From Posidoniimonas corsicana (GTDB lineage Bacteria; Planctomycetota; Planctomycetia; Pirellulales; Lacipirellulaceae), in NCBI RefSeq assembly GCF_007859765.1, contig NZ_SIHJ01000004.1, forward strand, positions 282,490 to 346,489: DNA of 64,000 bases. The letters are read 5' to 3'. This document shows, piece by piece, positions 2,775 through 55,771 of this stretch. Below the pieces are notes generated by a model that saw only the letters and a program-made list of their open reading frames with translations, searched no databases and was not told the origin of the DNA. Positions within the stretch are counted from its first letter, which is position 1; the number at the start of each line of letters is the position of its first letter. Both the position numbers and the translations under genes were made by a program.

Positions 2775-3394
2775 ACGGCAGAACGTCGGTATGCTTGGAC
2801 CCCCTCGCGGCCGTGTGGACCTTAATTGCGGAGTTCATGTGGTCACTCGGTGCAGCCGACTCGCAGCGGGGTACTTTTGTCCCTTCTGGCGCTATCGATC
2901 CTTAGGGACAAAAGTCGGCGCCCACCTCAAGCCCAAACGTCGGTTCTGCGCTTGTATAGCAGTGTGAACACTATTCGCGGCTCCGCCTGTCGATCGACTT
3001 TTGTCCCTCACTGCGCGCGATAGGGACAAAAGTCGGCCGCCTAACCCGTCGACACCTCCTTCATCAATTCGTTGCCGGCGCCCCGATCAGACGGTCCGCA
3101 CAGAAACCGCTAACACCCCCATTGGACCGCGCGGGGTGGCCGGTTTCTACCGAGAAATGGCGAGATTCTATTGGGCGAAAAGAGCGTTAGAGATGACCAC
3201 GCCTGAGAACCTCTTCGCCGAACCTTGGTGGTGGCGACTCCGTAGCAAACGTCGCCCCCGCAAACGTAGCCGCCTCCTCGGAGACCTGTTGCAACCAGGT
3301 TCCTGACTGGCAGGTAACCGTCGGAAGCTAATAGTCCCAACGTCGAATCCTCGAGGGCATTGTTATTCCGACTCAGAACACAAATCGCGTTGCG
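2775..3394. other. intergenic region carrying repeat element copy A
   Basis: No convincing coding sequence was found in these 620 bp. Short frames here have no recognisable domain and cross the hairpins described separately. The first 98 bp and the last 240 bp show no clear motif. Confidence 0.6.
2873..3155 (+). repeat. dispersed double-hairpin intergenic repeat, copy A
   Basis: Module 1: ACTTTTGTCCC at 2873-2883 pairs with AGGGACAAAAGT at 2904-2915 across a loop of about 20 nt. Module 2: CGACTTTTGTCCC at 2995-3007 pairs with AGGGACAAAAGTCG at 3022-3035. The tail at 3118-3155 contains ATTGGACCGCGC and GGTGGCCGGTTTCTA. In this copy the tail can itself fold: AGAAACCG (3102-3109) pairs with CGGTTTCT (3141-3148), and CACCCC (3114-3119) with GGGGTG (3133-3138). 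GCTTGTATAGCAG lies between the modules and recurs in copy B. The strand is arbitrary. No transposase is adjacent. Confidence 0.85.
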
Positions 3395-4378
3395 GTGGTC
3401 GCCTTCTTTCTTGCCAGCATGGCTATGGAATCTGCGCGGGGGGAAGAGCTCAAGCTCACCACCGGCATTTGCCTCTGGGCAGACAACGCGGTCTACCTGC
3501 AGGAGAAGAATCGGCCAAGTCTAGTCCTACTGTCGGAAAACGACAGGACGACGGTGCGGTCACGGTCAACGGGCCGCCCAGCTGACGCCGTCGAACTAGT
3601 CTATGCGATAGACGAGGTGTACTGCGGAGACGCCTCTTTCCTGGGACGACAGTTGCGGGTGCGGGCGTCGGAGCACTATCCACGCTTCACCAATCGCGTT
3701 GCCGGTCTGCCGGGCGCAGACGCGAGGGGAGTGGCTTTGGTCGCCGAGAGTTCTGGCCAGGTGCGCTGTGTGCCTTGCTTCTTCGCGGGCGCGTACCTCC
3801 CGATCTTTGAGGACGCGGTTCGCGATCCGATCCCGTTGGCCGATCGAGCGGATTTTGAAGATGCAGTTGGACTAGGCCGCCTGCTCCAGACCGTGGACCG
3901 ACGGCATCACGCCAATCAAGACCCGCGGCCGATCTGCCGGACCGCCCTACAGGATGACAACGAGCTGACCACCACCTGGGCAATCTCGCATCTCTGGCGG
4001 CTGGACGGGGACCGCGCCGCGGGCGACGTGATCGACGCGTTTCAGCACCCCGGGCAGTCCTTGTTCGTTCAAGTCGACTGCGACCGCAGGCTGATGGATT
4101 CGTCGCGAAGGGCAGCTTGGAGGTACTCAGCCGTCCGCAAGCTCCTCATCCCCAAGTGGCTTGCGACAGACGACATCTGGGCGTTCTCGTATGCGAGACG
4201 CTACTACCTGGAGTCGCTGCACAAGAACTGGGAGGAAGAGGGCTACGAGATGGAGGTTCTTACTCGACAGGTTGATGCTACCTATCGGCGAGCGGATCGC
4301 GGCATGCGTAATACGCTAGCAGAGATCTTTCCGGACGTGGTCGCGTTGGGACGTGAGATAGAACTTCCTGCAGAGTAG
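3395..4378 (+). CDS. hypothetical secreted protein
   Basis: Unrecognised 327-residue protein. The hydrophobic N-terminus (VAFFLASMAMESARGEE) looks like a short signal peptide. The rest is soluble, mixed alpha/beta in composition, with tryptophan- and arginine-rich stretches (AISHLWRLDGDRAAGDV near the middle) and no known catalytic motif. The helical middle could be HEAT-like, but this is only a guess from composition. The start is a GTG at 3395; no better in-frame start was seen upstream. GC content and codon bias are lower than in neighbouring genes, which could mean a young or lineage-specific gene. Confidence 0.65.
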   Translation: MVAFFLASMAMESARGEELKLTTGICLWADNAVYLQEKNRPSLVLLSENDRTTVRSRSTGRPADAVELVYAIDEVYCGDASFLGRQLRVRASEHYPRFTNRVAGLPGADARGVALVAESSGQVRCVPCFFAGAYLPIFEDAVRDPIPLADRADFEDAVGLGRLLQTVDRRHHANQDPRPICRTALQDDNELTTTWAISHLWRLDGDRAAGDVIDAFQHPGQSLFVQVDCDRRLMDSSRRAAWRYSAVRKLLIPKWLATDDIWAFSYARRYYLESLHKNWEEEGYEMEVLTRQVDATYRRADRGMRNTLAEIFPDVVALGREIELPAE

Positions 4379-4946
4379 TCGCAGAGAGGATGCCGCACTC
4401 CTAGAAGCCCTCACCAGGGCGGCGGCGCTGGCCTGGAAAAGTTGGCGCCAGAAGACGCAATAAGAAGGGCCGGGTTTCGCTTCCGGAGTGAAAACGTGCT
4501 CACAAACGCAACGTTCTTAGCGATGGTGCGCCGGCGGCACGGTCAGCCCACGATGTGGGAACCAGTGACGAGTCGCCTGCGACATCCCGCGACTTCACGA
4601 CCAGGCGGGCAGAACCAGACAAAAAAACACGCTCGCTTCGGTGTCGCCGTACGCGGTTGCGTTCGGAGGGTCCCGTAAGCGAGCGTGTGTATGCGGTCGG
4701 ACGCGAGTTGTTTTGAGACGTGGTACCCGCGAGCAGAGTTCCAGCAATCCTAATGCGTCCGCAATTTGTTGCGGGCGAACATGGCCGGCAATACAATGAA
4801 CCGGCCTCGTCCTTGGGACGTATTCTACCTGCGTCCCGATCCGCGAGACCGGCAAGTACCCGGCAAGTTTGACAGCGGTTTGCCGCGCCGCGCGGGTGGG
4901 CAAGCCGCGGCTAGACTGTCGTTCCAATCGACACCGAGGAATCGTC
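4379..4946. other. intergenic region with one long inverted repeat
   Basis: No supported gene in these 568 bp. Short frames such as 4442-4678 have no domain or credible ribosome binding site. The only structure seen is the inverted repeat at 4627-4690, described separately. Confidence 0.55.
4627..4690 (-). terminator. long-loop inverted repeat with T-tract, terminator-like on the minus strand
   Basis: ACACGCTCGCTT at about 4627-4638 is the perfect reverse complement of AAGCGAGCGTGT at about 4678-4689, with a loop near 40 nt. Read on the minus strand, the second arm is followed at once by seven T residues, as in an intrinsic terminator. No minus-strand gene ends here, so it may end an unrecognised small transcript or be a relic. 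Confidence 0.45.
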
Positions 4947-21858: not shown

Positions 21859-22200
21859 CCGCGGTCCGGAGTTTTGTCCCGTTCTGGCGCATCGATTCTT
21901 AGGGACAAAAGTCGGCCCACGCGGCGCCGCTCCGATTCGTTTCGTGCTTGTATAGCAGGGTATTCAGTTCTCGTCGGTTCCGTGCTCGCCCGACTTTTGT
22001 CCCTCGGCAGGGCGGGATAGGGACAAAAGTCTCGGCTGCCCCCGCGCTTGCGCCCAGCTTTTCGGACGCGGCATGAACGCGCACCGCTTACGCAGCAACC
22101 CCTTCATTGGAACACACTGGGTGGCCGGTTTCGACAACAAACTGGGGGAGAAGCCGAGTCGATCGACCGGCAAGTCACCGACCCATGGCGGCCCGAGACC
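21859..22200. other. convergent intergenic region filled by repeat copy B
   Basis: 342 bp between the stop codons of the zinc-ribbon gene (+) and flhB (-). Apart from repeat copy B nothing else was recognised, and no gene is supported. Confidence 0.6.
21871..22133 (+). repeat. dispersed double-hairpin intergenic repeat, copy B
   Basis: Module 1: AGTTTTGTCCC (about 21870-21880) with AGGGACAAAAGT at 21901-21912; the upstream arm has one mismatch. Module 2: CGACTTTTGTCCCT at 21991-22004 with AGGGACAAAAGT at 22019-22030. The tail (ATTGG, then GGGTGGCCGGTTTCGAC) is at about 22106-22133. GCTTGTATAGCAG between the modules matches copy A. It begins 12 bp after the stop codon of the zinc-ribbon gene. 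Confidence 0.85.
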
Positions 22201-55490: not shown

Positions 55491-55726
55491 CGACTTTTGT
55501 CCCCAAATACGAACACGATTCTTAGGGACAAAAGTCGCCCCGGATCTCATGCCCGCGATTCTACAACCCCTTGTTGTAACAGGGCTTGGAGATACTGGCC
55601 GGTTGCAACTCAACCGAATTTTGTCCTCTGCTATGCGCCGATAGGGACAAAAGTCGCCGACCCGTGGGCGGCCTGAAAGCTCACCAAGCAGTCCCATTGG
55701 ACCGCGCAGGGTGGCCGGTTTCTAGC
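55491..55726 (+). repeat. dispersed double-hairpin intergenic repeat, copy C
   Basis: Module 1: CGACTTTTGTCCC at 55491-55503 with AGGGACAAAAGTCG at 55524-55537. Module 2: GAATTTTGTCCT (55616-55627), with substitutions, against AGGGACAAAAGTCG at 55643-55656. The tail (ATTGGACCGCGC, then GGGTGGCCGGTTTCTA) lies at about 55695-55724. It fills most of the 295-bp gap between the convergent stop codons of the gene at 54607 and the DUF1559 gene at 55772; nothing else was recognised there. Confidence 0.85.
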
Positions 55727-55771
55727 GAAAAGCCTCGGCATTAGGGACTCTGTGCCCGGCCTAACGGCTTC

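Follow-up and report, generated by a model that had tools for sequence, protein, structure and literature searches.

When one arrangement of two unlike palindromes and a separate tail occurs three times within 64 kb of a planctomycete genome, the question arises as to what kind of sequence it is: a repeat that multiplies within the genome, a set of sites bound by a protein of the host, or an RNA. The window, by which we mean the whole 64,000-nucleotide stretch of Posidoniimonas corsicana DNA that was analysed, is considered here together with the whole source genome (G000, 6.77 Mb), that of a sister species (G001) and those of further relatives, with L-numbers standing for individual loci.

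Three copies in the window

Each of the three copies in the window runs from palindrome A through palindrome B to a tail at a varying distance. The initial annotation had placed them at 2873, 21871 and 55491, and all three are borne out, with first arms that we read as starting at 2873, 21870 and 55493. The 12-mer AGGGACAAAAGT is intact in every downstream arm in the window (6/6 exact), as had been described. Allowing up to two mismatches, it is found 11 times in the window compared with 1.62 expected, and 0 of 100 shuffles reach 11. The tail ATTGGACCGCGCNGGGTGGC, sought with up to three mismatches, lies at 3121, 22106 and 55696 in the window with 0.05 expected, so that the tail reported to follow both hairpins is present in 3/3 copies. 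The features are as follows.

2872..2916, + strand: copy 1 palindrome A, left arm 2873-2884, right arm 2904-2915
2906..3006, + strand: copy 1 101-bp core, GGACAAAAGTC ... GACTTTTGTCC, 93 bp start to start
2996..3034, + strand: copy 1 palindrome B, left arm 2997-3008, right arm 3022-3033
3121..3165, + strand: copy 1 tail, ATTGGACCGCGCGGGGTGGCCGGTTTCTAC...GAAA, right limit approximate
21869..21913, + strand: copy 2 palindrome A, left arm 21870-21881 (2 mismatches), right arm 21901-21912
21992..22031, + strand: copy 2 palindrome B, left arm 21993-22004, right arm 22019-22030
22106..22150, + strand: copy 2 tail, ATTGGAACACACTGGGTGGCCGGTTTCGAC, right limit approximate
55492..55536, + strand: copy 3 palindrome A, left arm 55493-55504, right arm 55524-55535
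55616..55655, + strand: copy 3 palindrome B, left arm diverged (about 55616), right arm 55643-55654
55696..55740, + strand: copy 3 tail, ATTGGACCGCGCAGGGTGGCCGGTTTCTAG, right limit approximate

Folded as single-stranded DNA, palindromes A and B give z-scores of -5.7 and -6.0 in copy 1, -3.0 and -5.7 in copy 2, and -6.7 and -2.5 in copy 3, while the tail of copy 1 folds no better than its shuffles (z 0.6).

Copy number and anatomy in the source genome

Searches of the genome and of related planctomycetes yield more copies in both, many of them in G000, where AGGGACAAAAGT occurs exactly 130 times (reversed control 0) and the tail 89 times (control 0). A fuzzy scan of loci scored 59 A-B units in G000 and 44 in G001, counts that include two G000 places (L056, L088) and one G001 place (L124) scored in both orientations. 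The distance from the right arm of A to the right arm of B is 119 bp in 34/59 units of G000 and 31/44 of G001, and it stays within 117-121 bp in 102/103 units of the two species despite a strongly diverged interior; the hairpin pair about 120 bp apart that was noticed in the window therefore holds genome-wide. When up to four mismatches are allowed against a species consensus of 17 bases, a tail is found 3' of 51/59 G000 units, at 46-197 bp from B, and of 22/44 G001 units. The whole unit measures about 300-450 bp, and little is conserved upstream of palindrome A. Pairwise difference among the G000 units is about 36%, and there is thus no sign that copying surged recently.

A dispersed element with two modules and a tail, as initially proposed, thus finds backing in the numbers counted across the genome and in the related versions that other genera carry. 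That the two hairpins are distinct modules also stands. The invariant ending ascribed to each does not, since the triplet before the 12-mer varies across G000: in a set of 121 distinct contexts, reversed left arms among them, the first module has CTT 38 times and TTT 16 times, and the second GAT 17, AAT 9 and CAT 8 times. Besides the 12-mer type, G000 contains two further arm subfamilies. The extrapolation to hundreds of copies per genome is unsupported as stated; 130 12-mers and 59 units, taken with the two other subfamilies, give a total of about a hundred or more, below "hundreds". In the third subfamily there are two left arms (TTTTGTCC N6 TTTTGTCC), as seen at L331, L333, L335, L337, L349, L351 and partly L357, all in G000, and its tail is a G000-specific one that it has in common with type 1.

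The units are intergenic. Gene overlap of more than 30 bases is absent from 58/59 units in G000 and 44/44 in G001, with gene calls checked by codon-phase pattern (290/291 sense-like). Upstream genes run with and against the unit direction in the ratios 31:27 (G000) and 24:19 (G001), and downstream genes in the ratios 26:28 and 20:22. This absence of a gene-direction bias argues against terminators, promoters or 3'-UTR elements as a general role, and no fixed position of the units relative to promoters or gene ends was seen.

A paired core with compensating changes

Across the subfamilies the stable feature is an inverted pair formed by the right arm of A and the left arm of B, GGACAAAAnnC ... 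GnnTTTTGTCC. This pair, 93 bp apart, is a more general conserved pair than the two 12-mers on which attention had rested. In a scan covering spacings of 75-104 bp, the start-to-start distance is 93 bp in 48/85 cores of G000 (92-94 bp in 74/85) and in 42/73 cores of G001, with other spacings in these two genomes mostly at 91-95 bp; among other genomes, it is 92-95 bp in 6/6 cores of G026 and 93-94 bp in 3/3 of G021. The nnn of the core arms is GTC/GAC in type 1, CCC/GGG in type 2 and CTC/GGG or CTC/GAG in type 3. Other genera carry CTC/GGG or CTC/GAG like type 3, and the arms of G026 read GGGCAAAA/TTTTGCCC. The nnn changes of the two core arms compensate each other.

Pairing was counted in an alignment of 79 cores, obtained from 137 suitable ones by choosing 89 (with type 1 thinned) and dropping 10 by eye; a comparison of unoriented cores was used for its outer-stem result only. 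Pairing reaches 90.0% in the outer stem, where five of the 13 pairs have changed on both sides (at one pair GC 44, CG 28 and other 6). When the partner is slid by one to three columns, pairing over the whole structure falls from 76.6% to at most 48.4%. Both the covariation score and the cells altered on both sides lie above all 500 shuffles, whereas the number of pairs with change on both sides does not (13 against 11.7 in shuffles, 82/500 being equally high), nor does the number of pair types (79/500 equally high). The central helix is only 54.8% paired and amounts to a weak central inverted motif.

Compensating changes of this kind in the outer stem, together with the z of -4.2 for the copy 1 core (folded as DNA), are what would be expected of a multi-copy structured RNA gene or of an RNA element at 3' ends. 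We nevertheless consider such an RNA very unlikely. The poorly paired central helix speaks against it, and the interval between A and B folds with a mean z of -0.03 to -0.52, like the upstream control (-0.28, -0.47), while RNAalifold finds almost no structure there. Visual inspection had convincingly suggested small hairpins in this interval (GAGCC..GGCTC, ACGCT..AGTGT), which folding did not uphold. In Rfam the window has 0 matches at the gathering score, and the four matches from six loci (E 0.22-0.77) all fall below it. Moreover, the weak conservation upstream of A, the lack of any promoter- or terminator-like site in a search of the 700 bases around copy 1 and the missing gene-direction bias all count against an RNA. 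In a type 1 unit all four arms are one sequence, and the arms vary jointly between subfamilies. From this likeness and joint change we infer that the arms would serve as a common recognised site rather than as independent RNA stems.

Distribution among relatives and in other collections

The exact 12-mer occurs 69 times in G001 (control 1) and at most twice per genome in the other 57 relatives. G001 has the layout of G000 with a consensus of its own. A sequence-only profile built from 77 units (R1; matches at E of 0.1 or below) finds at least 48 units in each of G000 and G001, and diverged versions in 17/34 further genomes of the same family. Eight of these have five or more units (G026 43, G016 25, G021 23, G032 14, G013 8, G005 6, G028 6 and G017 5), and the other 17/34 have no match to the profile. 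Searching 23 genomes from the other families of the order with this profile returned one single marginal match only. The family carrying the element is probably Lacipirellulaceae. Among 27 loci inspected in relatives the arms differ in sequence and the layout is recognisable by eye in most, with a few doubtful cases such as L190 and L191.

No match in plasmids or viral contigs accounts for the copies. Against plasmids, copy 1 hits one record only, with a 42-base piece at E 0.3; in viral contigs the 22-base palindrome has 0 matches and the core pattern one stretch, and in the genome contigs collection the palindrome pattern has 0 matches, both of these being collections from which near relatives of the window may be excluded. 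The core pattern recurs in 55 stretches of the genome contigs, many of them single and probably due to chance (Chitinophaga, lactobacilli). Ten of the 55 belong to Planctomycetota bacterium OFTM39, where, with 15/55 stretches inspected, a recognisable tail is absent. The OFTM39 repeat uses the same arm words in another arrangement, with an extra inner TTTTGTCC and GGACAAAA, at the following loci.

OFTM39 loci: L363, L369, L372, L373, L376, L377, L381, L402, L405, L406

Shared and unshared sites in two sister species

The genes flanking the G000 units were located in G001 by joined protein probes. A G001 unit lies on the same side of the orthologous neighbour at 19/46 sites (18 by scan and L166 read by hand) and is absent at 27/46; the 46 leave out L104 and window copy 3, both paired with G001 earlier. 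L055, L098 and L169 were rejected as shared sites because in G001 the element does not lie on the side of the orthologous gene where it would be expected, and at L052, among the 27 unshared, only a tail-like piece remains. Orientation agrees at 16/16 of the shared sites that could be oriented. By 12-mer or profile, eleven of the G001 units at shared sites belong to type 1; seven have CCC-type arms, and the remaining one is L056/L286. At L034/L275 the flank and the arm variant TTCTGTCC are common to both species, with arm ends GAC..GTC in one and GGG..CCC in the other, while at L167/L297, an example of presence against absence, the matching flanks are 398 bp apart as compared with 17 bp. Flanks could be paired at 11 sites, and there no target-site duplication or exact junction is readable where G001 lacks the unit.

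Shared-site copies are hardly more alike than other cross-species pairs. In the eight comparable pairs (of 11) identity is 0.56-0.70, with a mean of 0.61, and the same G000 units match all G001 units with an identity of 0.55-0.61, a mean exceeded by 5/8 of the shared pairs. The shared-site partner ranks first of 46 in one of the eight pairs, and for 8/8 of these units a closer paralogue is found within G000 (0.63-0.82). Tails behave similarly: CCGG-type tails follow 50/58 units in G000 and 0/43 in G001, and CTCT-type tails 0/58 and 18/43. Either the copies have been made alike in place, or sites have been re-used, or the variable positions are saturated along with a co-evolving factor.

A rival explanation is that the units are functional DNA sites of the host, their arms being bound at fixed spacing by an architectural or partition-like protein with which the sites co-evolve. 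Several observations would suit such sites: spacing is strict although the interior has diverged, the arms within a unit change together across subfamilies, and the interior folds no better than the upstream control. The retention of 19/46 sites, in one orientation wherever it could be read, would also fit a host function, and the concerted change could reflect co-evolution with a host DNA-binding protein, without movement. Even so, we regard host sites as rather unlikely, given that 27/46 sites are unshared, that half of the other same-family genomes lack a profile match, that the units are not set at a constant place with respect to promoters or gene ends, and that the distance from B to the tail varies although the tail is conserved.

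Transposases and known repeat families

A link to a RAYT, which had been suggested as a check on the window copies, was looked for and not found. Matches to PF01797 in G000 fall at five loci, and only at L181 does a copy, a diverged one, lie beside the gene, with another repeat closer. The L181 gene was assigned to class 3 TnpA_Y1 by motifs, with scores below or near the family cut-offs. One diverged unit with a G000-type tail lies directly upstream of it and none downstream in the locus, and the gene is bracketed by a different inverted repeat, CCCGACGCGTAAGCGAGGG. Quentin et al. 2018 (PMC6006769) describe class 3 TnpA_Y1 in Planctomycetes with high-copy flanking structures, which have a CnGA foot and number about 600 in Solibacter. 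The present element is like these in host phylum and in high copy number. The consensus of B has CCGA before CTTTTGTCC, which may correspond to the CnGA foot, but the GA of CCGA pairs within the stem.

It is on these grounds, the CCGA start of B and the unit beside L181, that the copies might be taken for REP-like repeats of a Y1/HUH transposase, whether RAYT or class 3 TnpA_Y1. We consider this unlikely. Among the 59 loci listed around Y1/HUH genes in the relatives and G000, the profile search finds units in two, one of which is the L181 place; with L181 itself bracketed by another repeat, the Y1 lead is not supported. When ten class-3-like loci were scanned for long hairpins, half carried other ones, which bracket the gene at L244, L247 and L250 and lie singly beside it at L249 and L270; the remaining five have no nearby hairpin. 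The G001 Y1 gene in L157 likewise sits amid other repeats. RAYT and class 3 TnpA are accordingly not supported as the cognate enzyme by the locus scans. Several Y1/HUH genes are flanked by other long inverted repeats (L181 at about 1356-1975, L244, L247, L249, L250, L270, and L157 at 3300-4560), which are perhaps these genes' own REP-like elements.

Other known systems offer partial likenesses. In Tn3-type res sites a recombinase has several inverted 12-bp sites, set at fixed distances within about 120 bp. The inverted 12-bp sites and the fixed spacing are shared with the present element, while lengths and sequence are different and the units here are dispersed in dozens. BOX, ERIC and Correia-type sequences are modular intergenic repeats of 100-300 bp. 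We know of no fixed 93/119-bp palindrome pair in BOX, RU/ERIC or Correia-type repeats, which belong to other phyla and have other sequences. What the element has in common with them is its modular, intergenic nature (for RU, PMC2759123). The nearest comparison is with REPINs and REPs served by RAYTs, which form persisting, non-coding, palindromic intergenic populations with a lineage-specific consensus (PMC3116915, PMC8049555, PMC3733652). REPs are 20-40 bp long with a GTAG or CGTC tag (PMC3733652), whereas the units here span about 300-450 bp and have two unlike palindromes at fixed spacing plus a tail. Neither GTAG nor CGTC is present at the hairpin foot, where A and B start C(C/G)GACTTTTGTCC in consensus, and the one occurrence of GTAG is in the G000 tail when this is reverse-complemented, as GTAGAAACC.

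A size of about 300-450 bp, an intergenic location and palindromic parts would also suit an ordinary MITE of a known DDE insertion sequence. This we hold to be highly improbable, as the left end (palindrome A) and the tail are different sequences and not mutual inverted repeats of the kind that terminate a MITE, and a comparison of 290 flanking genes showed no transposase-like group among the 14 largest. An insertion sequence with the end AGCTCTGTAGAAATCTTATCG lies against or inside the arms at L039, L048, L066, L098, L099 and L100 in G000, and several contigs end within it; Pfam has no match for 38 residues taken from its first open frame. IS elements elsewhere likewise insert at REPs (PMC1525189). 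That no named family matches is not contradicted by the Rfam search or by the open-licence literature on planctomycete and Lacipirellulaceae repeats, in which a description of this element was not found. The family is real and multi-copy and is absent from the sources searched.

A proposed replicator with a putative enzyme of its own

Taken together, the element family is old, non-coding and multi-copy, is most like a population of the REPIN/MITE type and was matched to no family tested. Our preferred explanation, to which we would give about an even chance, is a REPIN/MITE-like replicator that multiplies within genomes and is served by a putative enzyme recognising the palindromic arms. It is supported by the fixed anatomy, the dozens of intergenic copies and the presence or absence of units between sister species, and also by the species-wide similarity of arms and tails even at shared sites and the compensating changes in paired arms. 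Counting against it are that a candidate enzyme was not found and that a junction or target-site duplication was not read, and likewise the wide divergence of units within G000 and the two pairing measures that stayed within the range of the shuffles.

The putative enzyme, presumably encoded elsewhere in the genome, would recognise the palindromic arms together with the tail, either as inverted sites in duplex DNA or as hairpins on exposed single strands. It would move or copy the unit, or convert old copies to the current pattern. Drift of the recognised sequence within a lineage would oblige every copy to follow or decay, and species- and subfamily-specific arm types (GTC/GAC, CCC/GGG, CTC/GAG) would result. 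Every species seems to hold its copies to one private pattern, as if they were copied or maintained by an enzyme. More tentatively, and as a possibility that we would rather doubt, the two-palindrome 101-bp core with its tail may represent a new class of replicator, neither REP/RAYT nor MITE, rewritten in place by the putative enzyme so that ancestry at shared sites is erased. If the replicator reading is true, a planctomycete family maintains a repeat system of long standing, served by a DNA-processing enzyme of its own that is yet to be discovered, and would provide a clear bacterial case of concerted evolution at dispersed sites. With an arm and tail pattern particular to each species, a co-varying gene can be sought by presence or absence and by specificity.

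Strand skew beside the units

When all units are set in one orientation, the sequence upstream of A is rich in C over about 2 kb in G000 and up to 2.75 kb in G001. Negative skew is found upstream of 41/55 type 1 and 21/24 type 2/3 units in G000 (downstream 32/55 and 11/24), and upstream of 39/44 and 16/19 in G001 (downstream 23/44 and 11/19); in other genera it is seen at 6/9 upstream and 7/9 downstream. The upstream skew is independent of gene direction. Orientation by replication strand was considered and rejected: the local bias, though real, shows no agreement with large-scale skew (25 against 23, from a weak estimate drawn solely from loci centred on elements), and it is therefore not used as evidence for single-strand transposition. 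A local orientation preference at insertion and a lasting strand asymmetry would both fit the upstream skew, which at the matching G001 places, set at the gene edge, is seen in 20/25 without a unit and, less clearly, in 13/20 with one.
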